Shown here: one piece after another, positions 28,123 to 42,750 of the stretch
Layout: every line of letters starts with the position of its first letter
How positions within the stretch are numbered: the stretch's first letter is position 1
Source of the DNA: Clostridia bacterium
GTDB taxonomy: Bacteria > Bacillota > Clostridia > Oscillospirales > Acutalibacteraceae
Length of the DNA: 47,563 nucleotides
Assembly (NCBI GenBank): GCA_017473925.1
Contig: JAFUIY010000026.1
Coordinates: 1 to 47,563, forward strand
Reading direction: 5' to 3'
Translations under genes and position numbers: made by a program
The notes under the pieces: generated by a model
Told to the model about the DNA's origin: nothing
The model's input: the letters and a program-made list of their open reading frames with translations, nothing else
Databases searched by the model: none

Positions 28123-28126
28123 TGCA

Positions 28127-28539
28127 ATAATAACAGACCGTCGGATTCAGCCGGGTGTTCGAAAGGACACTCGGCAGTTTTATTCGCCTTACGGCGAGTG
28201 ATATTGCTTCGCAATTCTATTGTGCTTTGCACAGTGTTATTGTCCTTCGGACAGTTTTATGCGAATAAAATAACACTGAAACCGTAAGGCTTCAATATCA
28301 CTTTTGATTTATCAAAAATATAACTGCAAATTTTAATTTGCAATAACACTTATACATACCGAAAAAAATTGTTTTCAGATTGGCATAATTGCTTTCAATG
28401 TATATAACTCACTTTGACACGTTCAAACCGCAAGTGTCAATTTTTTTTAAAGAAAATCGGGAGACTCATTTACAAAGTGTCTCCCGATAGTTTTTCTGTT
28501 CTTAGTAACCCCGTACATTCTCCGACGGTCTGTTATTAT
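28127..28539. repeat. Hairpin-array element Y (MITE-like) with perfect 18-bp terminal inverted repeats
   Basis: The ends ATAATAACAGACCGTCGG (28127-28144) and CCGACGGTCTGTTATTAT (28522-28539) are exact inverted repeats. Inside are hairpins with stems CCGRGTGT, CGCC, TTGC, GTGC, GTCC, then GAAnCC, TTGAT and GCAAATT, separated by AGTTTTATT/AGTGATATT linkers that reverse orientation past the centre. A GGGAGAC/GTCTCCC hairpin with a T-run lies near the right end. It has one more hairpin unit (TTGCTTCGCAA) than element X at 9766. It begins 5 bp past the stop codon at 28122. Confidence 0.9.
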
Positions 28540-28547
28540 GCAGGAAT

Positions 28548-28638
28548 GAATTCTTATTTATTGAACTGATTATACGCTCATAATACAGATTTCAAGCTGC
28601 AAAAAACTGCCCTCAAAGAGAGCAGTTAATTTCACTCA
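28548..28638 (-). promoter_or_regulatory. Cluster cassette copy 0 (terminator plus relic promoter)
   Basis: Related to the cassettes at 32123, 34320, 35724 and 38661: same terminator hairpin, a TTTCAA/ATTATA pair (minus strand TTGAAA at 28590-28595 and TATAAT at 28569-28574) and similar flanks. The spacer is only 15 bp and no minus-strand gene follows, so as a promoter it looks dead. The terminator part is intact. Confidence 0.6.
28601..28626 (-). terminator. Terminator of the MFS/GH106-like unit
   Basis: Stem ACTGC-CTC/GAG-GCAGT at 28606-28626, with six T following on the minus strand (A-run 28601-28606), 15 bp past the stop codon. Confidence 0.88.
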
Positions 28639-28640
28639 TT

Positions 28641-30926
28641 TTATTCCGTGTAAAGCGTAACAGGGCCATATAATCCGCCTGAGAGGAAATCCTTTGCATA
28701 TTCAATTTCGCCCTCGAAATACGGGGATAATTCTTCTGTTTTCCACCTGTTGAAATAATCTGTATGAACATACCAGTTCGCTGATGTGTTTGTCACAACT
28801 ATTTTAAGTGTATTGTTTTCCCTGAGCACACCGTCAGGTATTTTAAACCTGTATGGAGGTGCTAAACTTACACCGAGGTGATGTCCGTTAAGGTATGCTG
28901 ATGCTGTAAAATGCACATCGCCTGAATCAAGCTCACCTTTTTTTCCTGTTTTCTCAGCAGGAAGTGTAAAGCTTGTTTCATAAACACAGCTGCCTGAAAA
29001 AGCATTGCCGACTGATGAAGACCAGTCACCAAGGTGTATGGAAACTGCATTTTCCGGATAATTAATACTATCAAATCCGTTTTTATCACAGACAAGCTCT
29101 GTTTCTTTTCTGAATGTAAATTCACCCGAAATATTAAATTCATCGTTGAAACGGTTCTGTTTTTCTGCTTTCAGAACATCGTCGGTTAACAAAATAACAG
29201 CAGTTTCGCCTATGGCGAGAGAAATATTAAAAATACCGTTTTCAGTTTCAATGTATTGCAGCTCACCATTGTTCAGGTCAAGCAGATAGCCTTTTGCAGA
29301 CGGTAAGTGAATACTGTAATCACCGTTTACGCCTGTTTCTCTGAAGAGAATCAATAAATCTCCGTTATTGAGCTTTCTGTGCATTGCACGCAAACCGTCA
29401 CCGTCTGCTTTTACTGCAGGTGTGAGATCAGAAAGGTCCTGTGAAACACAGCCTCCCAGTTTTATAAAATTATCCAATGCAATCCGTGTTTTTTCGGGAA
29501 TATATGCATTTTCAGGAATGATTATATGCTTATATTCTGCACTGCCGATGCACATATATCCGTTATCTGTAATTTCAGCATTCTGCAAAACATCATCATC
29601 TGCAATGTCAAAATCAACCAACATATTTTCAAGGGTTCTTCCGAGAATGTCAAACTCTTCTGCCGTTTTTTCTGCTTTTAGTCTTCCCTGAAAATCTGAG
29701 ACAGGATAATAAAGAGCCGTGTCATATACACGCTCACCGAGTGAGCTTATGTAAGACAATCTTTCCGTATAACGGTTAAAGTAACTGAGATACTTGCAGA
29801 ATGGTTGTTTTTCCGTAAACACGGGCAACTCCTGAGCAAGAAGCTGACCGTTTCTGCCGAGAGGAAAATTAAAGGGATTAAAAATATTGATTCCACGAAC
29901 AGCCCCGTAGCCTACTGTATATAGCATTATATCGTAAGTAACACTTGCCCCTGCAACACCAAAAATTTCACTTAATGCAAATTTTGTGCCGTTCTGTGCT
30001 GCCGCAGATGAAGCATATCGGGGAAAAAATCCGTTATATGCATTAAATTCATCTTTATCGGTTACTCTGTCCTCAGGATAAATCTGACGCCATATAAAAT
30101 CAACTCCGGGAATATCGAAACACCTGAGAGCTCTCATAAGATTGAAATTGTAACCGCCGTTCATACAGCCGTCAGGACTGTGGTCGACATCAAGATGCCC
30201 CGTAAAATCAATCCCTTTTTCATTTGCCCATTTTTTGCAGGGTAAAAGAAAATTTTCACAGAATGCATGACTGCATAAATCATACCATTGATGCAAGACA
30301 TGAACATTCTCTTCTGCAGGAGCAATTTCACCCTCAATTAACGGAATGTACGGCAATATTGATTCACCATAGAGTTCTTCGTATTTGTCCTTCAACTCTT
30401 TATTTGAAGAAGAAAAAAATGCCTTTGGTTCATCCGTGAACACTGCAGTAACATAATTCTTAAAATCTTCTCCTGTTGCAGAAGCATATTTTTCGTGAGT
30501 AATCTCTATAAAAAACTCTGTTGCTTTCCTGTTGAGCAAATCGGGATAACGGGAATTTTCAACTGAAAATTCAGGGTGAGCCTCTGTTACCTTACCGCAG
30601 GCACTGCCTGACGGCCAACCGCCTTCATCATAAATCCAGCAGTTCATTCCGAGTGCATTGCCTTGTTTTATTGCATATTCACAAAGCCCAAAAAATTCAT
30701 CTGTGAGATAACCGGGAGTAAGATTTGTAGGCATACTGTCGGGACGGAAATCTTTCGGCTCGGGAAGAATATAAAATGCTCTTATTCCGAGATGCTGCAT
30801 TTCATTCAGCTGAGTGTCTATAATTTCTTTTGTGCAAACATCATTCCACACCCATACATACACAGGTGCACAGGAAACATCAGGAGTAAGAAAACTGTTT
30901 ATATCGAAAATGTCATTGTTTTTCAT
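28641..30926 (-). CDS. GH106-like glycoside hydrolase (putative alpha-L-rhamnosidase)
   Basis: A 761-residue protein without signal peptide. The N-terminal barrel shows the blocks of GH106-related enzymes: VYVWVWNDVCTKEIIDTQL, MQHLGIRAFYILPEP, MNCWIYDEGGWPSGSA and VFTDEPKAFF, with acidic residues in the last two as likely catalytic residues. The C-terminal 200 residues are a beta-sandwich (SGSCVYETSFTLP, ASAYLNGHHLG, NNTLKIVVTNT), typical of sugar-binding accessory domains. Rhamnosidase is the best family-level guess; other alpha- or beta-glycosidases in this clan are possible. The ATG at 30926 was chosen since AAGGA lies 8 nt upstream, inside the end of the transporter gene, only 1 nt away. 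It is translationally coupled to the transporter. Confidence 0.7.
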   Translation of the reverse strand: MKNNDIFDINSFLTPDVSCAPVYVWVWNDVCTKEIIDTQLNEMQHLGIRAFYILPEPKDFRPDSMPTNLTPGYLTDEFFGLCEYAIKQGNALGMNCWIYDEGGWPSGSACGKVTEAHPEFSVENSRYPDLLNRKATEFFIEITHEKYASATGEDFKNYVTAVFTDEPKAFFSSSNKELKDKYEELYGESILPYIPLIEGEIAPAEENVHVLHQWYDLCSHAFCENFLLPCKKWANEKGIDFTGHLDVDHSPDGCMNGGYNFNLMRALRCFDIPGVDFIWRQIYPEDRVTDKDEFNAYNGFFPRYASSAAAQNGTKFALSEIFGVAGASVTYDIMLYTVGYGAVRGINIFNPFNFPLGRNGQLLAQELPVFTEKQPFCKYLSYFNRYTERLSYISSLGERVYDTALYYPVSDFQGRLKAEKTAEEFDILGRTLENMLVDFDIADDDVLQNAEITDNGYMCIGSAEYKHIIIPENAYIPEKTRIALDNFIKLGGCVSQDLSDLTPAVKADGDGLRAMHRKLNNGDLLILFRETGVNGDYSIHLPSAKGYLLDLNNGELQYIETENGIFNISLAIGETAVILLTDDVLKAEKQNRFNDEFNISGEFTFRKETELVCDKNGFDSINYPENAVSIHLGDWSSSVGNAFSGSCVYETSFTLPAEKTGKKGELDSGDVHFTASAYLNGHHLGVSLAPPYRFKIPDGVLRENNTLKIVVTNTSANWYVHTDYFNRWKTEELSPYFEGEIEYAKDFLSGGLYGPVTLYTE

Positions 30927-30927
30927 T

Positions 30928-32109
30928 TTAAACATCCTTAATGTATCTGCCTTGTTTTTTCAGACGGTTTATAAAACATTTAATAGCTATAACCATTACA
31001 ATATAAAGTAATGCGAGTAAAACCGGATAAACTTTTATTCCGAACACACCGCTTATAAGACTTACCATAGGCGGTGCCAGCATAACACCGATATATGCAA
31101 AGGCAATTTGTGAACCCATAATTGATTGTGACACTTCTTTACCGAAATTGTGTGGTGTCAGGTGTATCATATTCGGGTAAACAGAACCGTTACCGAGACC
31201 TATAAGGAATAAGCCCACGACTGCAAAAATACCGTTTAAAGGAAGAAGCATAATAATAATTGCCGGTGCAAGAATCACACAGCCGATAAAAATACGCATC
31301 CATGTTTTAATTTTGTTTGCAAGTAAACCTGAAACAAAACGGCCTATAGACATTCCGACATAATATACAGTAAGGGCAAGTGCTCCGTGCTCAATATCAA
31401 AGCCTTTTTCTTCTACAAGATAGGTGCTTCCCCAAACTCCGCAGGCATATTCAATTGCATTTGTCATAAGCATGATTACCCAGACTTGTCTGACTTCTGA
31501 TTTTTTTATCATTTCAGCAATTGAAAGGTTTACTCCGCTTTCTTCATTTGATTCCTGTGATGAAGAATTCTTTTTCCATAAGGGAACAGAAAATATCAGT
31601 AACAGCGCAATAGCAAACTGAACATAAAAAGCATAGCGATAACCGCCACGCCAACCGACATTACTGAAAGCCTGTGACATAATATAAGGACTCAGCGATA
31701 CCCCTACACCATAAAAACAGTGAAGAAAATTCATATGGCTTGCTTTGCAGTGAAGAGCCAAATAATTATTAAGACCTGAATCAATTGCACCTGCACCAAG
31801 CCCTAAAACAATGGCTAAAGGTATCATAAACCAGAACGACGGCACCAGAGAAAAACCGAGCAAAGAAAGTGCAGTCATGGCAGTACTGAAAGCTGTAACC
31901 TTTGCAGTGCCTAATTTATTGAGAATTCTTGTGCTGAACATACTTGAAAGCACTGTACATCCCGAAATCAGAAATGTGATAATGCTCACCATTTCAACAG
32001 GAATACCGAGTTCTGTATGAATTGCAGGCCAGGCGGAGCCGATAAGCGAATCGGGAACGCCGAGACCTATAAATGCAATATAAATAACGATTAAAAGTAA
32101 GCTTGTCAT
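30928..32109 (-). CDS. Major facilitator superfamily sugar/glycoside transporter (FucP-like)
   Basis: A 393-residue protein with about 12 membrane segments. It opens LLLIVIYIAFIGLGVPDSLIGSAWP and has the symmetrical halves of the MFS, with GLGAGAIDSGLNNYLA in helix 4-5 and SIGRFVSGLLANKI between helices 8 and 9. FucP-like carriers move sugars with protons. Given its cotranscription with a GH106-like gene, it probably imports the glycoside of the cluster. The ATG at 32109 was chosen: GGAG lies 7 nt upstream, and an earlier ATG at 32145 overlaps the -10 box. Confidence 0.85.
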   Translation of the reverse strand: MTSLLLIVIYIAFIGLGVPDSLIGSAWPAIHTELGIPVEMVSIITFLISGCTVLSSMFSTRILNKLGTAKVTAFSTAMTALSLLGFSLVPSFWFMIPLAIVLGLGAGAIDSGLNNYLALHCKASHMNFLHCFYGVGVSLSPYIMSQAFSNVGWRGGYRYAFYVQFAIALLLIFSVPLWKKNSSSQESNEESGVNLSIAEMIKKSEVRQVWVIMLMTNAIEYACGVWGSTYLVEEKGFDIEHGALALTVYYVGMSIGRFVSGLLANKIKTWMRIFIGCVILAPAIIIMLLPLNGIFAVVGLFLIGLGNGSVYPNMIHLTPHNFGKEVSQSIMGSQIAFAYIGVMLAPPMVSLISGVFGIKVYPVLLALLYIVMVIAIKCFINRLKKQGRYIKDV

Positions 32110-32122
32110 AATAAATCTCCGT

Positions 32123-32242
32123 AAATTCTTATTTGTCGGACACATTATATCACACTCACATACCTGATTTCAATCTGTCAGCACATAAAAAACTGCCCTC
32201 GGAAGAGAGCAGTAAAATATTCAGTCCGACAAAACGGAATTT
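32123..32242 (-). promoter_or_regulatory. Cluster cassette copy 1 (promoter of the MFS/GH106-like unit)
   Basis: Ends AAATTCTTATTTGTCGGAC (32123-32141) and GTCCGACAAAACGGAATTT (32224-32242) are inverted repeats. Minus-strand promoter TTGAAA (32168-32173), 18-bp spacer, TATAAT (32144-32149). A degraded palindrome CCTGATTTCAATCTGT (32163-32178) overlaps the -35 box. The terminator hairpin lies at 32192-32213. Confidence 0.8.
32184..32213 (-). terminator. Terminator of the DAPG-hydrolase/FAD-oxidoreductase unit
   Basis: ACTGCCCTC (32192-32200) and GAGAGCAGT (32205-32213) with a GGAA loop; T-run on the minus strand from the A-run at 32186-32192. Confidence 0.88.
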
Positions 32243-32248
32243 GTTGCT

Positions 32249-33505
32249 TTACAGCACAGCACCGTTTTTTATGAGCTTTTGCTGTAATGCTTTTATATCA
32301 ACCGTATGGACATTTTTGTTTGTTTTATATGCTATTGAAACCGCAGTGCCGGCGGCTTCACCCAGACAACAGCAGATCGGCATTATTCTTACAGATGCCT
32401 GAGCCTCGTGAGTAGCAGAGAGGCAACGCCCTGCAACAAGAAGATTGTCATATTCTTTCGGCAAAAGCGAACGATACGGGATTGTGTAAAATTCGCCGTC
32501 TTTGAAATATCTGTGGCTCGTACCCGTACCGGTAGGGCTGTGGATATCAATATCGTAATTGCCGAGTGCAATTGAATCCTCAAAGCGTGTGCAGTTAATG
32601 AGTTCATCACCATCCAGAATATGAACACCCTTAAGCTTTCTGCTTTCTCTGACACCGATATCAACCGCAACGGAAATCAGAGCACTTTCATGAAATGCAT
32701 CTGAATTTTCTCTCAGAAAACTGATAAGCTCGTGAATTTGCTTTCGTGCTATAACCTCGGCTTTACTCACATCAAAGGGGTTTGTAGGGTCAAGTTTCAC
32801 TACACGGGTTGAATTAAAGTGTAAAACATCTTCGCCAACGCCAAAGAAAACAAGAATATTCTCACGGGGATTTGTAATTTCACCTTTTGCCTGCTTTTCT
32901 TTGTAAAGCTCTTGCAGGTGAGGTCTTTCCTCTGTGAAAAGGTCAAGGTCAACACCGCTCATTCTGAAACAGGTTGTCATCGGTTGACAAAGACTGTCGC
33001 TTTCACGGCCTAACTGATAATCACAGCCTGCAAGATAAAATAACTCACCGTCACCTGTTGCATCAATAAAAAAATCTGCCTGAACTGTGAATTTTTGTGC
33101 TTTCGCAGTTACTTCAACCTCAGTCAGGTTACGTCCATCGGTTTTTACTCCGTAAACAATACCGTGAAAAAGAACATCCACACCTGCTTCAGCAGTCATA
33201 TCATCCAGAACTATTTTAAAATATTCGGAATTGAATTCATGGTCCTTGCAATCATCAACATATTTATCGTGACGCTCTTTCATTTCTTTGAAAACACCTT
33301 GTGAAAGATACTTTTTTGCGGCATTTTTATCCTTGCTGTTCTTTGTCCAGTATGGCATAAAGGGATAAACAAGATTATTGGCAATTGCACCGCCGAGGCA
33401 ACCCGATTTTTCCACAAGCAGAACCCTGAGCCCCTCCCGTGCAGCACTGACCGCAGCTGCAACACCGCTGAGCCCTCCGCCTGCAACAACAAGATTATAT
33501 TTCAT
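32249..33505 (-). CDS. FAD-dependent oxidoreductase (FAD_oxidored family), copy 1
   Basis: A 418-residue cytoplasmic protein. The dinucleotide-binding turn is VAGGGLSGVAAAVSAAREGLRVLLVEK (its core GGGLSG at about 8-13), with GGAIAN as the flavin-contact loop. FFIDATGDGELFYLAGC and GRESDS..QPMT are marks of the PF12831-type family, and the C-terminal block is LLVAGRCLSATHEAQASVR. Substrates of this family are poorly known, and it often occurs beside carbohydrate genes. The ATG at 33505 was chosen for AGGAG 9 nt upstream. It follows the DAPG-hydrolase-like gene by 73 bp and shares its unit. It is clearly related to the enzyme at 34449. Confidence 0.8.
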   Translation of the reverse strand: MKYNLVVAGGGLSGVAAAVSAAREGLRVLLVEKSGCLGGAIANNLVYPFMPYWTKNSKDKNAAKKYLSQGVFKEMKERHDKYVDDCKDHEFNSEYFKIVLDDMTAEAGVDVLFHGIVYGVKTDGRNLTEVEVTAKAQKFTVQADFFIDATGDGELFYLAGCDYQLGRESDSLCQPMTTCFRMSGVDLDLFTEERPHLQELYKEKQAKGEITNPRENILVFFGVGEDVLHFNSTRVVKLDPTNPFDVSKAEVIARKQIHELISFLRENSDAFHESALISVAVDIGVRESRKLKGVHILDGDELINCTRFEDSIALGNYDIDIHSPTGTGTSHRYFKDGEFYTIPYRSLLPKEYDNLLVAGRCLSATHEAQASVRIMPICCCLGEAAGTAVSIAYKTNKNVHTVDIKALQQKLIKNGAVL

Positions 33506-33578
33506 AAAATCACTCCTATATATAAAATCATCACGGTGTTTATAAATATCGTTTTTACTCAAAGAAAACGGAATTTGT

Positions 33579-34304
33579 TTATTTGTATTTTTCATACAAT
33601 ATCGGAAGAATTTCGCACAGATTGCGGTATTCTACACAGCAATGTTCAGCCATACCTTTTGCCATATCTTCGGTTATAATCAATTTTCGCAACAACTGAT
33701 TTTTCATGGTTTTTCCGAGCCAGAACCTGTTGATCATAAACAATCCGTTTTCGGTTTGTTTAAAAATATGTGCCATTTCAGTGTGCTTAACCAGATTGTT
33801 AAAAGCGCTGACATGTCCGCATACAATCCTTTGAATATTGTTTGCTTCCATAAGTTGTTTTGAAAAACCGAATTCTTCAGGCGTAACAAAATCAATTCTT
33901 AAAGGTAATTTTGCAGCGCCGATTTTTTCTGACGGATATTGAGTATTGTTCTGAAAAGGCGGACATGATTTCTGATTAAAATATTCCTTCTGTTTCTTAG
34001 AATATCCTATTCCGTAATGTTCACCGGGGAACCACACCTGATAACGTTCATTTGCCTGCGGATGCCACCAGAACCACCAATCAATCATTTCAGGCGTAAT
34101 TTCAGGCATCGGACATATCATTGATACCAGGTATGTGTCATCATCCATTTTTGCATATCCGATTTCCGTTTGCAAATCAGCATCAGATAAAATATCGTTC
34201 TTTTTGTCGAACGGTGTTTTTGTTATTTCATTTTTAATCAGAGAAGTTGCAATTTCAGGTGGTATTTGTGGTAATGGTTTTTTCAATAAAGCTTTTATTT
34301 CCAT
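33579..34304 (-). CDS. DAPG hydrolase PhlG / phloretin hydrolase family protein
   Basis: A 241-residue cytoplasmic protein. CPMPEITPEMIDWWFWWH followed by ERYQVWFPGEHYG is the signature of the family containing 2,4-diacetylphloroglucinol hydrolase (PhlG) and phloretin hydrolase, which cleave a C-C bond next to an aryl ketone using a metal held by two His and two Glu. Candidate ligands are His96 (GEHYG), His221 and Glu225 (HCCVE); Glu126 is a tentative fourth. FGF...HVSAF and NRFWLGK also fit the family. The closest biochemical use in gut clostridia is dihydrochalcone breakdown in flavonoid degradation, but the actual substrate cannot be read. GGAG lies 9 nt before the ATG. It is first in a unit with a flavin oxidoreductase. 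Confidence 0.75.
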   Translation of the reverse strand: MEIKALLKKPLPQIPPEIATSLIKNEITKTPFDKKNDILSDADLQTEIGYAKMDDDTYLVSMICPMPEITPEMIDWWFWWHPQANERYQVWFPGEHYGIGYSKKQKEYFNQKSCPPFQNNTQYPSEKIGAAKLPLRIDFVTPEEFGFSKQLMEANNIQRIVCGHVSAFNNLVKHTEMAHIFKQTENGLFMINRFWLGKTMKNQLLRKLIITEDMAKGMAEHCCVEYRNLCEILPILYEKYK

Positions 34305-34319
34305 TTAACTAATCTCCGC

Positions 34320-34440
34320 AAATTCTTGTTTGTCAGGATAATTATACCACACTCACAGAACAGATTTCAATCTGTCGGCAGACAAAAAACTGCCCTCGGA
34401 AGAGGACAGTAAAAAGTTCAGTCCGTTGAATCGGGATTTA
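34320..34440 (-). promoter_or_regulatory. Cluster cassette copy 2 (promoter of the DAPG-hydrolase unit)
   Basis: Minus-strand TTGAAA (34365-34370), 18-bp spacer, TATAAT (34341-34346). A perfect palindrome ACAGATTTCAATCTGT-type site (34360-34375) overlaps the -35 box. The terminal repeats AAATTCTTGTTTGTCAGGA and GTCCGTTGAATCGGGATTT are more degraded than in copy 1. Confidence 0.8.
34383..34410 (-). terminator. Terminator of the second FAD-oxidoreductase gene
   Basis: ACTGCCCTC (34389-34397) and GAGGACAGT (34402-34410), one wobble pair, followed by T on the minus strand. Confidence 0.85.
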
Positions 34441-34448
34441 ATCAATAC

Positions 34449-35708
34449 TTATATTCCTATAATTTCTCTGATTTCTTTTGCATCAATATCATTCAGATTG
34501 CAATTACGGGAAACTGCGATGCACGCCGCAACACCTGCAGCCTCGCCGATGCCTACGCAGATAGGCATTACCCTGAAATTTGAATGTGCCATATGTGTAC
34601 CCGAAATGTTTCTTCCGCAAAGCAGAAGGTTTTCTTTTGCTTCGGGAAGAAGGCAACGGTAAGGAATCGTGTATCCTTTTTCCTGAGAAAAATGCTTCTG
34701 CACTCCCGTTCTGTCAAGACCTGCACCCGTAATATTATGAACATCAAAATTGAAGTAAGCATCTTTTACAACATAATCGTCAAAGACCTTTGCTGTGAGA
34801 ATATCCTGCTCATTCAGGATATATTTACCTTTGAAATGTCTTGTTTCACGGATTCCTATAAGGGATGCAGAGCTGATAACATAACAGTTTTCGTAACCGG
34901 GAACAAATTTACGCAGATATCTGACTATATCATCCATCTGTCTTCGGCATGTAAGAGTGGCACTTGTCAGGTCATCTGCATTTGTGCCGTCAATATCGAT
35001 TGCATTTGTCATATTGCATGTCACAACACCGGGAAGAGTTGATTCATAAGTGAGAATATGACCCGCAGGATAAGGTATGTGTTCTTTTGCAAGAGCCTGA
35101 AGCTCGCCATTCGGTGTTTCATAGGTCGATTCAAACGAACCTAAAAATACTGCCCGGTCATAGTCAACACCGCCGACTTTGAACATAAGTGTTGCAGGCT
35201 GCATTTTATTATCACTTTCTCTGCCGAGAACAAATTCTGCTCCTGCTCTTGCGGCAATATCACCGTCACCCGTAGCATCAACAGTAATTTTTGCATAAAT
35301 ATCTGTTTTGCCCGATTTGTTGATAACAGTTGCACCGAGGATTTTGTCTCCGTCGCAGATTGCATCCTCAGCAAAAGTATAAAGCATAACCTTGCAGCCA
35401 ACTTCACAAAGCATTTCAAGATAGAGTGTTTTCAGTTTTTCGGGGTCTATAAGGTTGGTGATTTTATTTTGAAATTCACCTTCATTGTTTTCGGCTGTTC
35501 TTTTCAGAATTTCATAATACAAAGGACTCCCGCAACTGCCTGTCCAATGGCTCATAAGACCTGAAGTTGAAATTCCGCCGACATCTCCGCTTTGCTCAAC
35601 AAGAATTACCTTTGCACCGTTTTTTGCAGCACTGTATGCCGCCGCAAATCCTGCAGGACCGCTTCCGAGAACAAGAACATCAGTATGTATTGTAAACTTT
35701 TCAATCAT
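34449..35708 (-). CDS. FAD-dependent oxidoreductase (FAD_oxidored family), copy 2
   Basis: A 419-residue cytoplasmic protein with the same plan as the enzyme at 32249: VLVLGSGPAGFAAAYSAAKNG (shown in part; the GSGPAG turn), GGISTSG loop, ITVDATGDGDIAARAGAEFVLGRESDN, KMQPATLMFKVGGVDYD and LLLCGRNISGTHMAHSNFRV. The flavin frame is intact, but the two differ through the substrate-facing middle, so they likely act on different intermediates. The ATG at 35708 was chosen because GGGGTG precedes it; the GTG three codons earlier has no site. It forms its own unit between two cassettes. Confidence 0.8.
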   Translation of the reverse strand: MIEKFTIHTDVLVLGSGPAGFAAAYSAAKNGAKVILVEQSGDVGGISTSGLMSHWTGSCGSPLYYEILKRTAENNEGEFQNKITNLIDPEKLKTLYLEMLCEVGCKVMLYTFAEDAICDGDKILGATVINKSGKTDIYAKITVDATGDGDIAARAGAEFVLGRESDNKMQPATLMFKVGGVDYDRAVFLGSFESTYETPNGELQALAKEHIPYPAGHILTYESTLPGVVTCNMTNAIDIDGTNADDLTSATLTCRRQMDDIVRYLRKFVPGYENCYVISSASLIGIRETRHFKGKYILNEQDILTAKVFDDYVVKDAYFNFDVHNITGAGLDRTGVQKHFSQEKGYTIPYRCLLPEAKENLLLCGRNISGTHMAHSNFRVMPICVGIGEAAGVAACIAVSRNCNLNDIDAKEIREIIGI

Positions 35709-35723
35709 ATTCAACACCCCAAC

Positions 35724-35840
35724 AAATTCTGTTTGTCAATCTGATTATATCATAACTGCAGTACAGATTCAATCTGCAGACAAAAAACTGCCCTCAGAAG
35801 AGAGCAGTAAAAAATTCTGTTCAGGAAATTTTAAATCAAA
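35724..35840 (-). promoter_or_regulatory. Cluster cassette copy 3 (promoter of the second FAD gene)
   Basis: Minus-strand TTGAAT (35767-35772), 17-bp spacer, TATAAT (35744-35749). Perfect palindrome CAGATTCAATCTG (35764-35776) over the -35 box. The end repeats are the most diverged of the set. Confidence 0.8.
35781..35808 (-). terminator. Terminator of the GH5 gene
   Basis: ACTGCCCTC (35787-35795) and GAGAGCAGT (35800-35808), then T on the minus strand. Confidence 0.87.
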
Positions 35841-35851
35841 TCCACAAAAAT

Positions 35852-36997
35852 TTATGCTTTCGCATATTCAGAGAGCAATTTATGGTCATTCATAGGTTTG
35901 CAACAATCCTGAGTTCTGACAGATGACCATTTACGTTCAATTTCAGCGGCAGAGTCGTTATTTATATCAACAACATTGTCCTCGTCATCTGAACCCATCA
36001 TGAACCAATGACTGGTTGTCCCTTTTGCGCAATGTCCTTTGTAGGTCCATGTCTGCCAGTTATATGAACATTCATTGAAAAGCTTCAGTATGTATTCCCA
36101 GGTTGCAGTACCTCGGCAGGGAGAAAATTCTCCTGCAAGAACAGGCACATTGAAGCTTTTGCTTGCGTGATGCTCGGTAACCTCCCTGAAGCTGTCGTTG
36201 GAATCGTCATAAAGGTGATACTGATATATCACATTTTCCCAACCTCTTTCTGCAGGGTACGGTATGTCATCGGGTGTCCAGATAGCCTCAAGAGTTATGA
36301 TATGGTCTCTGTCAACTGCTCTGACAGCATCGTAAAGCAGAGAGTAAACATCATGATACTTGCTGTTGACTTTATCGTCGCCTTCGTAATCACACATCGG
36401 CTCATTCATCAGGTCATAGGCAGCAACCGCTCCGTTACCTGCAAAATGACGGGCAATTTCACTCCATAAATCACAGGCAAGTGCACGGAAATGAGTGCCC
36501 TCTTCGGTTTCGTCATAAAGTCTGCAATGGTCAACACGGCAGCTGTGATGGGCTATGCTCTGATGACCCGGCACACCGTGCATATCAAGAATGACATACA
36601 TTCCTCTTTTTCCGCATTCCTCAACAACCCAATCAAGGCGTGAAAAATCTATTTCACCGTTTTCTTTTCGTTTCCATGTGCCTGAATCATCCGTCTGGAA
36701 ATTACGGTACCAGAACGGAACACGAACACAGGTAAATCCGAGATGCTGAAGATAGTCAAGGTCGTATTCCGTAATATAGTTGTCTTCACGCAATCTTATA
36801 AGCCGTTCGGCTTCCTGCTTTCCGAAACGGTTTTCGAGTGTTGTTACGATATCCCATTGAGCTTCTCCGCCTTTGAAAAAGCCCATCCATAATTCATCGA
36901 GCAACCATCCGCCGAGATTTGTTCCCCGCAAAAACACCTGTTTTCCTTCAGCATTGATGATTTTTTCACCCTCACAATGCAGCATACTCAGACTCAT
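35852..36997 (-). CDS. GH5-family beta-glycosidase (exo-glucanase/rutinosidase-like)
   Basis: A 381-residue cytoplasmic protein. VFLRGTNLGGWLL at the start, VRVPFWY, ILDMHGVPG, AAYDLMNEP (Glu199, acid/base) and VPVLAGEFSP (Glu290, nucleophile) are the standard GH5 sites. It belongs near the exo-1,3-beta-glucanase-like branch. That branch also contains rutinosidases that cut rhamnosyl-glucose from flavonoids, but the assignment within GH5 is open. No signal peptide, carbohydrate-binding or dockerin domain, so it is not a secreted cellulase. GGAGG lies 7 nt before the ATG. It follows the GH78-like gene by 163 bp without a terminator between. Confidence 0.8.
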   Translation of the reverse strand: MSLSMLHCEGEKIINAEGKQVFLRGTNLGGWLLDELWMGFFKGGEAQWDIVTTLENRFGKQEAERLIRLREDNYITEYDLDYLQHLGFTCVRVPFWYRNFQTDDSGTWKRKENGEIDFSRLDWVVEECGKRGMYVILDMHGVPGHQSIAHHSCRVDHCRLYDETEEGTHFRALACDLWSEIARHFAGNGAVAAYDLMNEPMCDYEGDDKVNSKYHDVYSLLYDAVRAVDRDHIITLEAIWTPDDIPYPAERGWENVIYQYHLYDDSNDSFREVTEHHASKSFNVPVLAGEFSPCRGTATWEYILKLFNECSYNWQTWTYKGHCAKGTTSHWFMMGSDDEDNVVDINNDSAAEIERKWSSVRTQDCCKPMNDHKLLSEYAKA

Positions 36998-37160
36998 ACT
37001 GTATCCTCCTGTTACAATAAATTTCAGATTGAGATTAATATATCAGATTTGATTTAAAAATTTTCGGCAAATTGGAATTTATCGGTTCGTTGATTATTAG
37101 CAAATGACTCTGTTGTGAATGTATCTGTTTCTGTGTGACCTTTTATCTGTATTTATAATA
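36998..37160. other. Intergenic region between GH78-like and GH5 genes
   Basis: No terminator hairpin and no full cassette. CAGATT occurs twice (37025 and 37044), resembling half-sites of the cluster operator, but no convincing promoter is seen. The two genes may share one transcript. Confidence 0.4.
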
Positions 37161-38621
37161 TTACAACCCGTATTTTCGGATGAAATATGACGGTGTGCAG
37201 CTCCACGCGTGGCAGAGACTGTTTATCATTCTGTCCTCGTACGGTGAAAAATCAAGGTCATCGGGAATATATGCTTCCCAGAATGTATCGGCACCGAGTT
37301 CAAGCATACCGCCCCAGAATCTTTTCAGATATAATACCGCTTCATTCGCCAGACCAAGTTTTATCATAGCCTCTGTGACATAATGGCGCATATAAGGAGT
37401 AACGGGCTGTTTTGCATTATCGTTATCAATGCAGTGTATCAGAAGATTTCTGGCTTCTTCTCCGTTTATTACACCGCCCAATATCATCCATACCTGCGAA
37501 TGTACACTGAACTGCCTGTTATCCGACTCATTTATAAAAGCGTTTGCATTTTCATCATAAAGATGTTTTTTACAAGCAGAACGAACAATTGAAAGAAGCG
37601 ATGAATATTTATTGAAATCTTCGTCACCGATAGCTTTCAATAATCCGGAAAAACGTTCAAGAGTATAAAGATATACCCCCTGCAAAGCCGTCAGTTTTTC
37701 GAGTCCCGGACACCAATCAATAAAAGCAAACCAACCGTCCTGATTTGTAACAATCATATTTTCATCAAGTATTGCTTCAAAGCTGTCAAGTTGTGATTTG
37801 CAGACCTGCAAAAGGTCGTTTATAACACCGATGTCTGCAGTATGTTCATAATAATCGCATACTGAAACAACATAAAGAAGTGCGTAGTCTGCGATATGTG
37901 CTTCACCCGAATGATAATAAGGTGTTTCATAAACAAATGACGGCAGAAATCCGAGGTTATTGCATTCACCTGCAGCAAACAGATATAAACATCTTTTTAC
38001 GATTTCAGGATTGTTGAATGTGTAATAATTTGTAAGCGCTTCAAGACGAAGGTCACCAATCCAAAGACGGCGGTCACGCTTCGGACCGTCTTCAAAGAAG
38101 GTCTGCATACATTCTTTGAGAGTATTTGTTGCAACAATGTCAATTTTATTCAGAAGAGGGTCTTTTGTATCTGCAGATTTCAGAACAGATACATCAGCAC
38201 TTGTAGAAGCACGGAAAGAAAAATCAAACAGCCTTATGGGTCTGTTGGCTTTTTCTACCGTTATTTTTATGTATCTGCAAGCATATCTTCGGGGCATAGT
38301 TATATTCTGAGGAAAATCGAGATTGATTATTTCCTCCTGCAACCACGTTTTTGAAAGTACACCCTTGTATTGAGAAAAATCATCATTGATTTCTCTCATA
38401 TCTTCGCCGAACCTGATAATCAATCGAACGGGAGCATCGACAAAGACATCAACCTTATCGAAAGCAAATGAAAAATGTCCCACCGCGTGCTCACCAAGGT
38501 CGAGAAGAATGCTGTCACCGCTTGTTGCATTGAATTCGGTTATGTCAGGAGTGAGAACGGTAAATTTAAGTTCAGGAAAATTCTCCTGAGCTTTGCACAG
38601 AAAGTAATTTTTGTCTTTCAT
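37161..38621 (-). CDS. GH78-like alpha-L-rhamnosidase, compact form
   Basis: A 486-residue cytoplasmic protein, much shorter than many GH78 enzymes (often over 800). Residues 1-140 are a beta-sandwich (LLDLGEHAVGHFSF, RYIKITVEKANRP). Then comes the (alpha/alpha)6 barrel with EDGPKRDRRLWIGDLRLEAL (178-195, the acidic motif of the active site), FAFIDWCPG, WMILGGVI, and DTFWEAYIP followed by SLCHAWSCTPSYFI. These blocks are those of rhamnosidase barrels; extra N-terminal domains of larger members are missing. The Shine-Dalgarno site (GTGAG) is weak. It is transcribed from cassette copy 4. Confidence 0.75.
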   Translation of the reverse strand: MKDKNYFLCKAQENFPELKFTVLTPDITEFNATSGDSILLDLGEHAVGHFSFAFDKVDVFVDAPVRLIIRFGEDMREINDDFSQYKGVLSKTWLQEEIINLDFPQNITMPRRYACRYIKITVEKANRPIRLFDFSFRASTSADVSVLKSADTKDPLLNKIDIVATNTLKECMQTFFEDGPKRDRRLWIGDLRLEALTNYYTFNNPEIVKRCLYLFAAGECNNLGFLPSFVYETPYYHSGEAHIADYALLYVVSVCDYYEHTADIGVINDLLQVCKSQLDSFEAILDENMIVTNQDGWFAFIDWCPGLEKLTALQGVYLYTLERFSGLLKAIGDEDFNKYSSLLSIVRSACKKHLYDENANAFINESDNRQFSVHSQVWMILGGVINGEEARNLLIHCIDNDNAKQPVTPYMRHYVTEAMIKLGLANEAVLYLKRFWGGMLELGADTFWEAYIPDDLDFSPYEDRMINSLCHAWSCTPSYFIRKYGL

Positions 38622-38660
38622 AATAAAAATCTCACTTTAAAAATTATCGTTTTGATTGAC

Positions 38661-38780
38661 AAATTCTTATTTGTCGGACACATTATACCATACTCACAGA
38701 ACAGATTCAATCCGTCGGCATACAAAAAACTGCCCTCACAAGAGAGCAGTTAAATATTCAGTCCGCAGAACCGGAATTTA
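38661..38780 (-). promoter_or_regulatory. Cluster cassette copy 4 (promoter of the GH78/GH5 unit)
   Basis: Minus-strand TTGAAT (38705-38710), 17-bp spacer, TATAAT (38682-38687). Palindrome ACAGATTCAATCCGT (38701-38715, one mismatch) over the -35 box. End repeats AAATTCTTATTTGTCGGAC (38661-38679) and GTCCGCAGAACCGGAATTT (38761-38779). Confidence 0.8.
38723..38750 (-). terminator. Terminator of the GH31 gene
   Basis: ACTGCCCTC (38729-38737) and GAGAGCAGT (38742-38750), T-run on the minus strand. Confidence 0.87.
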
Positions 38781-38795
38781 CATTACTGTTTTGGT

Positions 38796-41042
38796 TTAAT
38801 ATTCCTCTGTCCGTACAATCTCACCCATACCATTGCAGAGACTTTCGTCTACCTTGCAGTATTTTAGCACTGTCCCCTCTTTTACGAAAATAGGCATTGT
38901 TTTAAGGTCAACCTTTTTAGAAATCCACATTCCTGTTGACTCGATTTTTTCTTTGGTGAAATAGTCTGTCCAGGTGCCTTTCGGAAGATAAATTTCACGG
39001 ACATCTGTTTTACTTAATGGTTTGAGTACAGGTGCAACAAGAAGACTGTCGCCGAAAAGGTACTCGTCATCAATGTGTCTCACATTTCTGTCTTCGGGAT
39101 ATTCAAGATACAATGCCATTGTCATCGGAAGACCTGTCTTAGTGCATTTCTCTGCCTGCTCATAAATATACGGCATAAGAGAATAACGGAGCTTATCGTA
39201 GTAACGGAAAATATCACAAGCCTCTTGTGAGAATCTCCAGGGCTCACGGTAGTTGTTATCACCGACACCGTGGCAACGGGAATGAGATGAGAATAATCCA
39301 AGCTGTGCCCAACGGACATAAAGCTCATCAGTAGGTGTTCCCAAAAATCCGCCGATATCGTGTGAAAAATACGGAATACCGCTTAAACCCAATGAAAGAG
39401 CCGCTCTGAGTGTACCTGCCAGAGCCTCAAATGTACACTGACTGTCACCACCCCAATGAAGAGGATAACGCTGACTTCCTGCAGTACCGCTGCGAGCCCA
39501 TACGATATTTTCGCCTGATGCTTCTTTTGTTGCATTGAAAATGACACTGTTATATACAAGTGAATAAAGGTTGTGGAAATGCTTACCGTCAATATTCTGA
39601 TAAATCGCATCTTCTGCGATTCCTTCACCGAAGTCGGTTTTTATTGCAGCTGCACCGAGTTTAATCAGCTCTTTGATTTTATCACCGTACCACTTGCAGG
39701 CATCGGGATTTGAAAAGTCAATTGTAACATCCTTTACCCAACTGCCCTGACAGGAATCAGGCAACTGATAAGGCTTACCGTCTTTATCCTTTGAAAGATA
39801 GCCGTGTTTTACAGCTTCGTGGTAATTTTCATTATCGTCATTGGGAGGAATAAAATTATACTGCCAGAGACTGATTTTAAAACCGTCTTTTTTATATCGT
39901 TCAATATTTTCTTTGGGATTCGGGAATCGTTCTTCTGAGAATTTAAGGTCACAGTTCCAGTCACGGTTAAACCACGCCGTATCAAGATGAAGAACATCAC
40001 AGGGAATATCGTTTTCACGGACTTTCTTTGCTATATCGTCAACAACATCCCAGGAAACATAGCTGTTACGGCTCATCCAAAGACCGAAGCTCCACAGCGG
40101 AGGCAGTTTTGCAAAGCCTGTAAGTGTGCAATAGCCCTTGATAATATCTTTAGGTGTTTTACCGCCGATTACAAAATAATCAATCTGACTGTCAAGAACA
40201 GCAAACTGTAATGCACTTAAATCTGTTGTGCCGATTTGCCAATCTGTCTTTGCACCTGAATTAAGGAAAAGTCCGTAGCCCTTGGTTGAAAGGCAGAACG
40301 GAATGTTAATATATGTGCGACGGCTTGTTGTACCGACAGCATCCTTATTGTGAAAATCAACCGTTCTGCCGTTACGGGTAAGGGAGTCAAAGCGTTCACC
40401 CAAGCCGTAAACCACTTCATCTGTTTCAAGCTCAAGTGACTCAAAACAAGCGTAATCACCCTCCAACTCGGCAAGAGCAAGGTCGTGAATATCACCTGTG
40501 CGGAAATCCTGCTTTTTCTGTGAGTAAAACTCATTACCGTCAATGAATTTCGCAGAGATTTTTGTTGTCTGCTTATCAACCGAAACAATAATCTTACTTG
40601 TTGTGAGAGTGATTTCGTTGTCGGCTTCACCCAAGGTGAAATCAACCTTTTCAGGCTTTGCGATGAGCATCTGTGCATCTTCGGGAAGACCTGCAAAACG
40701 ATTTATGATTTCATTGTCCTTTGAGAAAACAACCCTGAAAATCTCATCAGTCCAAAAGTGAATATGTAAATAAACTTTTGGAACTGTAATATCGGCAGGC
40801 TTATATAAATGCAAGGATGTTTCGTGAGTATATGAAAGCAAAGCACGGCGTGCCATTGTGCTGAGAGTGAGCACAATTCCGTTTTCTTCTTTTTGGGTAT
40901 TTAATATTTCTATAGGTCTGTTCTGAATTGCAGGATTAAACCGAAAATCTGCAATTTCAGTTTTTGAAACGGGTTTTGTTTCACATACAGCTTCGCCCTG
41001 CATAAACTGAGGAAAATTCTGACTGTCAGGTTTTGTAGCCAT
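38796..41042 (-). CDS. GH31 alpha-xylosidase-type glycoside hydrolase
   Basis: A 748-residue cytoplasmic protein. The N-terminal beta-sandwich (to about 310) leads to the barrel with PPLWSFGLWMSRNSYVSW, DVLHLDTAWF, AAIKTDFGEG (Asp470, nucleophile) and WARSGTAGSQRYPLHWGGDSQ (quoted in part; Asp533, acid/base). The KTDFGE form and the WMSRNSYVSW block favour alpha-xylosidase over alpha-glucosidase. The C-terminal part is beta-rich (LLVAPVLKPLS, REIYLPKGTWTDYF). GGAGG lies 7 nt before the ATG. It is the first-transcribed gene of the cluster, driven by cassette copy 5. Confidence 0.88.
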   Translation of the reverse strand: MATKPDSQNFPQFMQGEAVCETKPVSKTEIADFRFNPAIQNRPIEILNTQKEENGIVLTLSTMARRALLSYTHETSLHLYKPADITVPKVYLHIHFWTDEIFRVVFSKDNEIINRFAGLPEDAQMLIAKPEKVDFTLGEADNEITLTTSKIIVSVDKQTTKISAKFIDGNEFYSQKKQDFRTGDIHDLALAELEGDYACFESLELETDEVVYGLGERFDSLTRNGRTVDFHNKDAVGTTSRRTYINIPFCLSTKGYGLFLNSGAKTDWQIGTTDLSALQFAVLDSQIDYFVIGGKTPKDIIKGYCTLTGFAKLPPLWSFGLWMSRNSYVSWDVVDDIAKKVRENDIPCDVLHLDTAWFNRDWNCDLKFSEERFPNPKENIERYKKDGFKISLWQYNFIPPNDDNENYHEAVKHGYLSKDKDGKPYQLPDSCQGSWVKDVTIDFSNPDACKWYGDKIKELIKLGAAAIKTDFGEGIAEDAIYQNIDGKHFHNLYSLVYNSVIFNATKEASGENIVWARSGTAGSQRYPLHWGGDSQCTFEALAGTLRAALSLGLSGIPYFSHDIGGFLGTPTDELYVRWAQLGLFSSHSRCHGVGDNNYREPWRFSQEACDIFRYYDKLRYSLMPYIYEQAEKCTKTGLPMTMALYLEYPEDRNVRHIDDEYLFGDSLLVAPVLKPLSKTDVREIYLPKGTWTDYFTKEKIESTGMWISKKVDLKTMPIFVKEGTVLKYCKVDESLCNGMGEIVRTEEY

Positions 41043-41070
41043 CGTCAGACCTCCTTTTTACAATTTTTTA

Positions 41071-41115
41071 TTTATTATATCATAGCCAAAGTGCAATTTT
41101 CAATCTGTCGGCAGA
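41071..41115 (-). promoter_or_regulatory. Cluster cassette copy 5 (promoter of the GH31 gene)
   Basis: Minus-strand TTGAAA (41098-41103), 18-bp spacer, TATAAT (41074-41079). The flank TCAATCTGTCGGCAGAC is shared with the other cassettes. One arm of the palindrome (AATCTGT) is kept; the other is changed. A different hairpin replaces the usual terminator. Confidence 0.7.
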
Positions 41116-41155
41116 CAAAAACGAGCAGAAAGATTTTTCGTCTTTCTGCTTTTTA
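41116..41155. terminator. Bidirectional terminator upstream of the GH31 promoter
   Basis: AGCAGAAAGA (41124-41133) and TCTTTCTGCT (41141-41150), with T-runs on both strands. It insulates the cluster from the ATPase gene. Confidence 0.8.
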
Positions 41156-41180
41156 ACTTTACAGTTCGGCATAAAAGCAA

Positions 41181-41210
41181 AACAGCCCTCGTTTTTCAGA
41201 AAGGGCTGTT
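41181..41210 (-). terminator. Second hairpin downstream of the ATPase gene
   Basis: AACAGCCCT (41181-41189) and AGGGCTGTT (41202-41210); a short T-run on the minus strand. Confidence 0.5.
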
Positions 41211-41357
41211 TCGCATAACAAACATAGGAACGGAGAGTTAAAAAATTCCAACATATCAAGAAGAATTAATATAATTATGATTTCTGAATAACACAATAAA
41301 AGAAAATTTCAGTTTTTTATATATAAAAATTTTAATCAAATTTTCTCTCATTTATGA
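41211..41357. other. Intergenic region, nothing recognised
   Basis: A/T-rich sequence between the ATPase stop codon and the hairpin at 41181. No open frame with a ribosome-binding site, no promoter and no repeat was recognised. Confidence 0.5.
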
Positions 41358-42719
41358 TTAAAGGGACATTTTTCCGTCGGCAAGGTCTTTTGCAACAAAC
41401 GGAATAAAGTAAAACGGCACAGTAAGAAGTTTCTGCTCTGCATTATACCCGTAGTTATTTTTAGATACCTTAATCGCAAACTCGAATTTATTATGGTTTG
41501 AGAACTTCTCAAGTGAATTAAGAGTACCTCTGCCTTTCTTGACATCAATCGGATAAAGCTTATTATCAGATTCAATAATAAATTCAAGCTCTGCTGTTGC
41601 CTTCCCTCTCCAATAGAACAATTTGAGTTCTTTTGCAATCAGCTCATTCGCTACGAAGTTTTCAAAGAAAATGCCTGATAATGTATTTTCTCTTTCTGCC
41701 GATACAAATGATGCAGCATTGATACCGCTCTGATACGAGAACATACCGATATCTCCGAGGAACAGACGGAAATTACTGTCACTGTCAGGCATCAGAGGCA
41801 TAGTAACATGTTCTTTGAGCTGAAAAGACTGATTGACAACATGAGCAAGCGTGAGCCATTGAATTGATGTAGCATAATCCCTTGTTCTGCCTTTTTCTTC
41901 GAGTAATCCGGGAGAAAAGTTCTTTGACTCCTTGTTCAACTCTCGGTATATATTCTGAAACAAAGTTCTTGAACGAAGCACCGCTTCCTGACTTGCCTGA
42001 TAAAGCTCCATATCAGCAAGGTAGTTGTCATACAATACTTTGAGAATTTCTCTCGACTCAAAAATATCGTTATCGTCGATATAAGCATCAACAGCTTCAG
42101 GCATACCACCTATAAGAAGATATTTATACACCTGTTCCATAGCCAGCTCATGAATTTTTGCATCAAGAGCAGTTCCGGTTTCATAAGCTTTTTTTATTGT
42201 ATTATACAGGACTTCATTACTGTTCATCAGGAATTCATCAAATGTCATAGGATATACGGTCATCTGATTTATTTTGCCGACAGGGAAAAGAAACTTATCA
42301 TTCTCCTTTGAGCCACGCTTGTTCGTTTCTCGCTGAATCTTAATACGAACCATAGAACCTGTTGCTATAACAGGAATGTCTCGGAAATCCTGACAGAAAT
42401 ACTTCAGTGAAGATATGATGTTCGGGCACTCCTGGACTTCATCGAAAATCAGAAGAGTATTCTCATTTATCTGTTTACCTGTCAACCAGGAGATATATTC
42501 AATAATTTTCTGTGCATTGGCAGTTTCAGAACAAAAGGCTCTGATTTCATCTTCTATCTTACAATCTATATAGAGATAGTTATTCTTATAATATTTTTTA
42601 GCAAAGAGTTCCACTATAAGATAGGTCTTACCGACCTGTCTGGCACCCCATACAATCAGAGGCTTTTTCCGTTTATTCTCATTCCAATCAATCAGCTTTT
42701 GCAAGGCTATTCGTTCCAT
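41358..42719 (-). CDS. AAA_14/DUF4143 ATPase
   Basis: A 453-residue protein. Walker A is GARQVGKT (25-32) and Walker B is LLIFDEVQE (89-97). The C-terminal DUF4143 region ends in a nuclease-like segment (LEFIIESDNKLYPIDVKKG) with the D/E and K spacing of restriction-endonuclease-like folds. Such proteins are common and often present in many copies in anaerobe genomes; their function is not established. GGGAGG lies 7 nt before the ATG. Upstream are four exact 33-bp-spaced repeats, the first overlapping the promoter. It is not obviously part of the glycosidase cluster. Confidence 0.85.
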   Translation of the reverse strand: MERIALQKLIDWNENKRKKPLIVWGARQVGKTYLIVELFAKKYYKNNYLYIDCKIEDEIRAFCSETANAQKIIEYISWLTGKQINENTLLIFDEVQECPNIISSLKYFCQDFRDIPVIATGSMVRIKIQRETNKRGSKENDKFLFPVGKINQMTVYPMTFDEFLMNSNEVLYNTIKKAYETGTALDAKIHELAMEQVYKYLLIGGMPEAVDAYIDDNDIFESREILKVLYDNYLADMELYQASQEAVLRSRTLFQNIYRELNKESKNFSPGLLEEKGRTRDYATSIQWLTLAHVVNQSFQLKEHVTMPLMPDSDSNFRLFLGDIGMFSYQSGINAASFVSAERENTLSGIFFENFVANELIAKELKLFYWRGKATAELEFIIESDNKLYPIDVKKGRGTLNSLEKFSNHNKFEFAIKVSKNNYGYNAEQKLLTVPFYFIPFVAKDLADGKMSL

Positions 42720-42750
42720 AACCGTACCTCCCTGTATCTATTATATGTGT

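Follow-up and report, generated by a model that had tools for sequence, protein, structure and literature searches.

The stretch considered here (the window) corresponds to contig C16 in its full length of 47,563 bases, taken from a draft genome of a Clostridia bacterium that comprises 2.33 Mb in 133 contigs (G000, the own genome). Its minus strand carries, at 28641..41042, a cluster of eight genes encoding glycoside hydrolases (GH), two flavoenzymes, a transporter and a relative of the hydrolase PhlG, and copies of an element of about 125 nucleotides (nt), with a predicted terminator and promoter, lie between genes and at both edges of the cluster. The first-pass annotation had explained the cluster as a single pathway for flavonoid glycosides. 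It did not mention the repeats, which a repeat search of the cluster yielded as three- and four-copy families (D1–D4) located between genes. The window has 61 open reading frames (ORFs) of at least 100 aa, and 29 of its proteins were scanned with Pfam. All compared sequences are draft assemblies.

All eight genes are present at the expected places, and matches to Pfam profiles and solved structures confirm their families, including the two rhamnosidase-type enzymes and the importer. The most upstream gene (38796..41042; all features of the cluster are on the minus strand) encodes a GH31 protein of the alpha-glucosidase/alpha-xylosidase group (PF01055, 307 bits). The membership in GH31 stands, and the narrower label of an alpha-xylosidase type is weaker: the best solved match is 5f7c, named alpha-glucosidase (479.5 bits), which scores above YicI, and the protein falls below the cut-off of the NCBIfam alpha-xylosidase equivalog (581.5 bits versus 606). 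Further, the Cys-Phe pair that follows HFD in YicI, where it presumably has a functional role, is replaced in the alignment by Thr-Ala.

The next gene (37161..38621) encodes a GH78 alpha-L-rhamnosidase of the KoRha-like short form, with 361 bits to 4xhc across residues 32–486, 77 bits to PF17389 and a match to PF21104. We take 4xhc to be KoRha, the GH78 enzyme of Klebsiella oxytoca. The GH5 gene (35852..36997; PF00150, 90.7 bits), which has no promoter element of its own, encodes an exo-glucanase-like protein. Its best solved match is a glycoside hydrolase described as a putative beta-xylosidase, followed by exo-1,3-beta-glucanases; nothing marks the protein as a rutinosidase, and the closest solved enzyme is not one.

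The genes of the two FAD_oxidored flavoenzymes, FAD2 (34449..35717; PF12831, 347 bits) and FAD1 (32249..33505; PF12831, 382 bits), flank the gene of the PhlG/DAPG-hydrolase family protein of 241 aa (33579..34304; PF18089, 199.5 bits, E 6.9e-59). They are followed by the MFS transporter (30928..32109; PF07690, 122 bits) and by a GH106-like alpha-L-rhamnosidase family protein (28641..30935; PF17132, 40.6 bits with the cut-off 29). The latter is divergent: the match spans only profile positions 269–648 of 743, and solved GH106-like chains align to it mainly over the jelly-roll domain. For some of the listed ORFs the start is probably too far upstream, the likely true starts being M13 of MFS (ORF 30928–32145), M31 of FAD1 (ORF 32249–33595) and M4 of FAD2. 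No strong N-terminal hydrophobic stretch is seen in the seven soluble proteins, as judged by Kyte–Doolittle values rather than by a signal-peptide program, which agrees with the earlier remark that signal peptides are lacking.

On the coding strand, a full copy of the element begins with the left end (T/C)AAATTCCAATTTG, followed by a spacer and the terminator hairpin ACTGCTCTC-loop-GAGGGCAGTTTTTT. The second half contains the promoter TTGAA(A/T)...TGnTATAAT, with an extended −10 box, and the right end GACAAATAAGAATTTG, after which come the ribosome-binding site and the start codon. The 14-nt ends are near-palindromic. Six copies are arranged around five transcription units, GH31, GH78–GH5, FAD2, PhlG–FAD1 and MFS–GH106. 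Four of the six joins between modules consist of a shared element, at two joins one end stands alone, and the two further copies edge the array.

The upstream edge copy, W6 (41058..41141, before GH31), is a promoter half without the common hairpin (promoter 41103–41074); it scores 50.3 bits with R1, a sequence model built from five window copies. W5 (38660..38779; promoter 38710–38682) lies between GH31 and GH78, and W4 (35724..35837; promoter 35772–35744) between GH5 and FAD2. W3 (34319..34438), between FAD2 and the PhlG-like gene, has a hairpin with one mismatch to the pattern (34389–34410) and a promoter at 34370–34341. W2 (32122..32243), between FAD1 and MFS, has the left end, the hairpin (32192–32213), the promoter (32173–32144) and the right end. 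W1 (28549..28630; R1 42.5 bits), after the last gene, carries an exact hairpin pattern. The GH78/GH5 join retains a single left-end-type site TAAATTCCAATTTG (37068..37081), and the PhlG-like/FAD1 join a left-end-like site CAAATTCCGTTTT (33565..33577) directly after the stop codon, identical in letters to the left end of W2 (family D6). The GH106-like and MFS genes overlap, with no end site between them, and this pair is present in four genomes (the window, G006, G007 and G009).

The element is concentrated in the cluster. The hairpin pattern, with up to three mismatches, gives eight strand-matches in the window; they fall at four positions, each inside the cluster, and the mean expected by chance is 0.03. 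End sites with at most one mismatch number four in the 12.9-kb cluster, one in the remaining 34.9 kb of the window and one in an own-genome control of eight 20-kb stretches (160 kb); at two mismatches the counts are six, two and four. The lowest-energy single-strand fold pairs both ends, which are imperfect and 14–17 nt long, in three of the six copies tried. An RNA family that might explain the repeats was sought in 28000–45500, where no Rfam family reaches its gathering score; an ncr952 match overlapping W4 has 26.7 bits (E 0.019) against the gathering score of 100. The longest exact word common to two window copies is 27 nt, which is short for assembler confusion and would speak somewhat against misassembly by repeat collapse.

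Outside the array, R1 has a single match in the window (E 0.27) and none at E≤1 in the 160-kb control. In a search of 12 genomes, with at most 150 candidates scored per genome, strong matches were found in G000, in this cluster only, and in its congeners G006, G007 and G009; elsewhere in the own genome the best match has 19.9 bits (E 0.0013, with 150 of the 884 first-look candidates scored). The exact hairpin pattern has four copies in G000, six in G006, ten in G007, seven in G009, two in G004 and none in the seven other genomes, while the reversed pattern does not occur in any of the 12. The two hairpins of G004 are accompanied by R1 matches of up to 25.6 bits. About ten G000 contigs contain near-equal weak 60-nt matches (model positions 43–98, 11.6–12.3 bits), which perhaps represent another repeat family.

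At the level of the family, the hairpin pattern is seen in 17 of 398 genomes, the own genome and G007 included, the other 15 carrying one to three copies; the reversed control is absent from the family genomes listed. At ten hairpin-only loci outside the group R1 scores at most 24.7 bits, and two of them (L224, L226) have E about 1e-6 in a small search. Hence divergent relatives of the element may exist outside the genus, and we take multi-copy arrays as known from G000, G006, G007 and G009 only. A viral contig matching the hairpin has an R1 score of 13.2 bits and is considered a chance match. A keyword literature search, which cannot detect a sequence, found no description of such an element in titles and abstract starts.

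Twenty-four copies were aligned (23 with at least 36 bits and one with 29.2), out of 36 distinct R1 hits at E≤0.001 that remained after removal of overlapping loci and of one opposite-strand match. The −35 box TTGAAW is kept in all 24 copies, TATAAT and the hairpin in 23 each, the right end in 17 and the left end in 12, the ends being counted within two mismatches. For 12 of the 24 copies the nearest neighbour is in the same genome (mean in shuffled data 5.8, with 83 of 5000 shuffles as high), and thus there seems to be some homogenisation within genomes, although not total. Copies on two G009 contigs are 93–98% alike, and copies of G006 and G007 are 99% alike.

The cluster genes are unequally represented in relatives of the genome. 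PF18089 is found in one of the 60 relatives searched, the own genome itself, and hence in none of ten congeners and none of 49 further relatives; in the order, it is present in seven of 295 genomes, the own one included. FAD1 has no match in the ten congeners at E≤1e-60. Close GH31 matches are seen in the congener G001 (68%, with one internal stop) and in G031 (69%), and none at E≤1e-100 in G006, G007 and G009. These three genomes hold FAD2 (85–95%), GH5 (88–94%), GH78 (78–83%) and the GH106–MFS pair, on different contigs, save that in G007 FAD2 and GH106 are separated by 66 kb. The absences are soft, as the completeness of G006, G007 and G009 is 87, 97 and 83%. In G051 (contig C114, L146), a FAD2 relative (61–62%) directly precedes genes read by eye as GH95 and a sugar-acid dehydratase; the substrates of FAD_oxidored proteins may thus be sugars and not aromatics.

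In several pairwise comparisons, the similarity begins and ends at copies of the element. The match of FAD2 between the window and G009 runs from element through gene to element (window 34314–35829, 91%) and not beyond; that of GH5 (35723–37083, 90%) ends likewise and begins at a left-type end. G007 and G009 have in common a 427-aa gene and a 261-aa gene that looks methyltransferase-like by eye; both matches likewise extend through an element or a site and not beyond, and that of the 427-aa gene begins at a right-type end. The end preceding GH78 is of the right type in the window and of the left type in G006 and G007. Joins with one end and no promoter are those of GH78/GH5, PhlG/FAD1 and methyltransferase/GH78. 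Of the 12 orthologue loci, that is, four modules (FAD2, GH5, GH78 and MFS–GH106) in three congeners, five are bounded on each side by a copy or an end site (FAD2 and GH5 in G009, GH78 in G006 and G007, MFS–GH106 in G007). Over all comparisons, 52 of 123 block ends have an element or site no more than 40 nt away; the means are 38.5 when intergenic points are drawn at random (4 of 2000 draws as high) and 5.9 when any points are drawn.

Between G006 and G007, GH78 is 99% identical at the nucleotide level, whereas FAD2, GH5, spoVT, MFS, GH106 and a beta-eliminating-lyase gene are 69–84% identical in this pair. Between G009 and G007, the identity of a metallophosphoesterase module is 95%. Recent transfer of these near-identical modules would be the simple reading. 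An array lies near spoVT in all four genomes, with element copies on the same side of this gene, at 4.2 kb in the window, 0.6 in G009, 1.2 in G006 and about 6 in G007. Near spoVT, G006 has one strong copy and genes in both orientations; the window and G006 also share a flank with a NUDIX gene and the ORF 24934–25776.

Genes adjacent to the element in other places are diverse. They include GH16, GH29, GH42, GH95, rhamnosidase-type, GDSL, rhodanese, radical SAM and methyltransferase genes, some of them beside weak copies only, as well as GH31 and GH127 genes near copies, and on one array contig a HipA-like gene stands between hairpins. Relaxase, ParB and serine recombinase genes occur on G007 C6, and a relaxase gene on G009 C76, both being contigs with weaker R1 matches. 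Two G007 contigs, C10 (L145) and C16 (L216), end inside a match to the methyltransferase module of G006 C15; past this match one has GH78 and the other an element and metallophosphoesterase, so that there are probably two copies with different neighbours.

Thus, the element precedes five units, it is absent from the sampled rest of the genome, and orthologues of four modules are located elsewhere in three congeners. We consider it reasonably probable that the cluster is an array of separately evolving, commonly promoted glycan-catabolic modules at a variable site next to spoVT, to which a PhlG–FAD1 module has been added. The modules would be seven, GH31, GH78, GH5, FAD2, PhlG-like, FAD1 and MFS–GH106, and each full join is predicted to provide the terminator of the preceding gene and the extended −10 promoter of the next one. 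The common promoter would then express the modules together, recombination at or between element copies would re-sort them, and the near-identical ones may have moved recently between species. Modules may move by site-specific recombination that uses the 14-nt ends, or by ordinary homologous recombination among similar copies. A further candidate is slippage from one end of an element to the other, an event that would delete the promoter and terminator and fuse operons. Most modules would serve the intracellular breakdown of imported plant glycosides, and the PhlG-like zinc enzyme, forming one unit with FAD1, may hydrolyse a C–C bond adjacent to a carbonyl group borne by a ring, aromatic or of a similar kind.

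Several observations weigh against such an array. No recombinase was identified beside it, no genome-wide recombinase search having been made. The left ends of the window copies are degenerate, with two to five mismatches in 13, and R1 itself was derived from the window copies. Of the 12 orthologue loci, three have partial or weak copies (FAD2 in G006, GH78 and MFS–GH106 in G009), and at four none is recognised nearby (FAD2 and GH5 in G007, GH5 and MFS–GH106 in G006). Block ends favour elements over random intergenic points only modestly. The GH78 contigs of G006 (12.2 kb) and G007 (3.3 kb) are short, and hence wrong binning is an alternative to transfer; all sequences are drafts, and those of G006 and G009 are the less complete ones.

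Adjacent genes in gut Clostridia are often interpreted as forming a pathway. Here the togetherness of the genes seems to be due to a shared joint; that they lie side by side would then say little about a single substrate, whereas the promoter they have in common provides a direct, testable hint of co-expression. Separate histories of the modules undermine the co-location argument behind the flavonoid path, and so the PhlG relative itself becomes the main remaining pointer to aromatic substrates.

The PhlG-like protein is a member of the PF18089 family with no substrate assigned. The first-pass annotation had proposed to check this membership, and the profile matches residues 32–238 far above the curated cut-off of 22.7 bits. 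The match to the profile of the PhlG/phloretin hydrolase family (3hwp, 5xe5/5xey, Phy of Eubacterium ramulus) extends over the whole domain, and the protein has 83 bits to the solved phloretin hydrolase 5xey and 75 bits to PhlG (3hwp). It keeps the ligand pattern His, Glu, His-x3-Glu, and the four presumed zinc ligands (H96, E126, H221, E225), the lack of which would have argued against the proposed function, are invariant in 6 of 6 and in 27 of 27 aligned sequences. They are equivalent by alignment to the PhlG zinc ligands, which we take to be numbered H129, E160, H270 and E274. The score with the NCBIfam PhlG equivalog is only 91.7 bits versus the cut-off of 600, which speaks only against DAPG hydrolase proper.

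For comparison, we scanned 84,980 species, with one genome per species, and found 179 relatives, of which 80 loci were used. Four relatives are close (L010, 77%; L011, 63%; L012, 61%; L013, 57%) and the next one is 35% identical; in the alignment, 22 of 26 relatives share just 25–34% identity with the protein and the four close ones 54–77%. In a midpoint-rooted tree of the window protein and 34 of the 80 loci, the window sequence groups with L010–L013 (100/100), and this long-stemmed clade lies outside a set of 23 rows (97/97) that holds Flavonifractor plautii and Eubacterium oxidoreducens. The protein thus does not group with F. plautii, which stands in for the Phy type here, as E. ramulus Phy itself is not in the tree. 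Phloretin hydrolysis by F. plautii, and a Phy homologue in it 46% identical to that of E. ramulus, are described in passages of PMC8398226. The window protein differs from this family in belonging to a separate deep clade, in being shorter than most members and in having different gene neighbours.

The neighbours were compared within the flanks covered, which vary from about 0.1 to 10 kb (about 0.3 kb upstream for L010 and L012). The FAD, GH106, GH78, GH5 and MFS genes of the cluster were found at none of the 80 loci (tblastn, E≤1e-8), and thus the gene order of the cluster was not seen there. Of nine window proteins, besides PhlG only distant GH31 (25%, L060) and AAA (20%, L061) matches were seen, and as far as their flanks reach the four close relatives have other neighbours. 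At L010 (335–6574), the PhlG-like gene is followed by genes of an ATPase, two HGD-D proteins (2-hydroxyacyl-CoA dehydratase type) and an MFS_2 transporter; the HGD-D neighbours may connect it with the chemistry of CoA-bound aromatic or hydroxy-acid compounds. At L011 a GH3 gene is near the PhlG-like gene. The genome of L010, the nearest relative (G327), has no hairpin match, and R1 scores there at most 23.9 bits.

The single pathway proposed originally, in which MFS imports a rhamnosylated flavonoid (aryl) glycoside, GH106, GH78, GH5 and GH31 strip the sugars, the flavoenzymes alter the aglycone and a dihydrochalcone is finally split by the PhlG relative, now appears unlikely. It is consistent with the PF18089 membership and the kept ligands, with rhamnosidase-type enzymes that have no evident signal peptides and with units led by promoters of one kind, and common promoters would let the enzymes work together even if they came together separately. 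According to passages of PMC11170127, Catenibacillus decagia, with many GH78 genes, converts hesperidin, and C. scindens, without rhamnosidases, does not. Gut flavonoid degraders (F. plautii, E. ramulus and Catenibacillus) share with the window a PF18089-type gene, and C. decagia also has rhamnosidases in its genome; passages of PMC8398226 and PMC11170127 state that most metagenome-assembled genomes of F. plautii and E. ramulus carry flavone reductase (Flr), Fcr and chalcone isomerase (CHI) as well. In contrast, the 29 scanned proteins of the window include no recognisable Flr, Fcr or CHI; outside the window the genome was not searched for them. Against the pathway are also the position of the PhlG relative outside the Flavonifractor clade, the low score with the PhlG equivalog, within the limit given above, the absence of the partner genes at PhlG loci, and the scatter of the same genes in three congeners that have no PhlG.

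Plain co-regulation is a quite credible alternative to the array, if not one we would rank as probable. Here the element would be a regulated promoter with an upstream terminator, kept by selection, its palindromic ends would be operators, and genes would have moved independently of it. The near-invariance of the promoter boxes and the operator-like form of the ends fit this, and the modest preference of block ends for elements and the orthologues without a recognised copy leave room for it together with unrelated rearrangement. It does not easily explain why some genes have copies to either side and yet different neighbours in another genome, why promoterless joins retain one end where others carry a whole element, or why copies are so similar on two G009 contigs and between G006 and G007. 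Those similar copies within G009, the imperfect inverted ends, their pairing in half of the folds and the existence of orthologues without copies could also be produced by a non-autonomous transposon with inverted ends (miniature inverted-repeat transposable element, MITE) that inserted between already clustered genes and brought promoters. We regard this as quite improbable, since no target-site duplication was seen by eye in the 24-copy alignment, some element-free joins keep one end rather than none, and the element is not dispersed, either in the 160-kb control or, among the candidates scored, in the own genome outside the cluster. Correia elements and other promoter-bearing MITEs are 100–150 nt long, with imperfect inverted ends and an outward promoter. 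The element resembles them in length, ends and promoter, but in its own genome it is confined to the joins of one array, shows no target duplication and carries the terminator of the preceding gene.

The array of modules also resembles integron gene-cassette arrays: there are short modules in the same orientation, imperfect palindromes of about 100 nt, one chromosomal site and signs of interspecies exchange, and the cargo elsewhere includes methyltransferase and HipA-like genes. Unlike in integrons, the full joins of the window array carry a promoter and a terminator. No integrase was found among the 29 window proteins scanned by Pfam, the genome not having been searched, and the attC core, which we take to be RYYYAAC...GTTRRRY, was not met in the 24-copy alignment read by eye. 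More speculatively, and in our view rather doubtfully, the array may belong to an integron-like gene-module system carried by these species, with a recombinase yet to be identified, where the element with CAAAT-NNN-AATTTG ends would be the exchange joint. A captured module would arrive equipped with promoter and stop signal, and recombination of one end of an element with the other would remove both signals and fuse neighbours into operons (GH78/GH5, PhlG/FAD1). One chromosomal site would come to hold a stock of glycan-catabolic modules, among them here that of a PhlG-type aryl-ketone hydrolase. If the element were a true exchange joint, gut Oscillospirales-type bacteria would possess a module system that supplies promoters, and it would become clear how a single catabolic gene, for example that of a PhlG-type C–C hydrolase, can enter a new host and work at once.

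Several other features of the window may be mentioned. Near the downstream edge of the array, 28175–28245 (plus strand) matches the Rfam Gut-1 RNA with 46.1 bits, just below the gathering score of 50, and a perfect 19-nt inverted repeat (28127–28145 and 28521–28539, 375 nt apart) lies downstream of the last element. On the other side, the DNA of 42969–43711 matches at 72% that of G007 C20 around a 320-aa gene beside a weak element; it is perhaps a decayed further module between an AAA_14/DUF4143 gene (41358–42719) and spoVT. Elsewhere, the minus strand encodes a GH4 glycosidase (17734–19083) and an MBOAT acyltransferase (16084–17484). Two large dockerin type I proteins, one of them with seven List_Bact repeats, are encoded at 5947–9045 (minus strand) and 19301–23869 (plus strand), and the organism may thus build cellulosome-like complexes.

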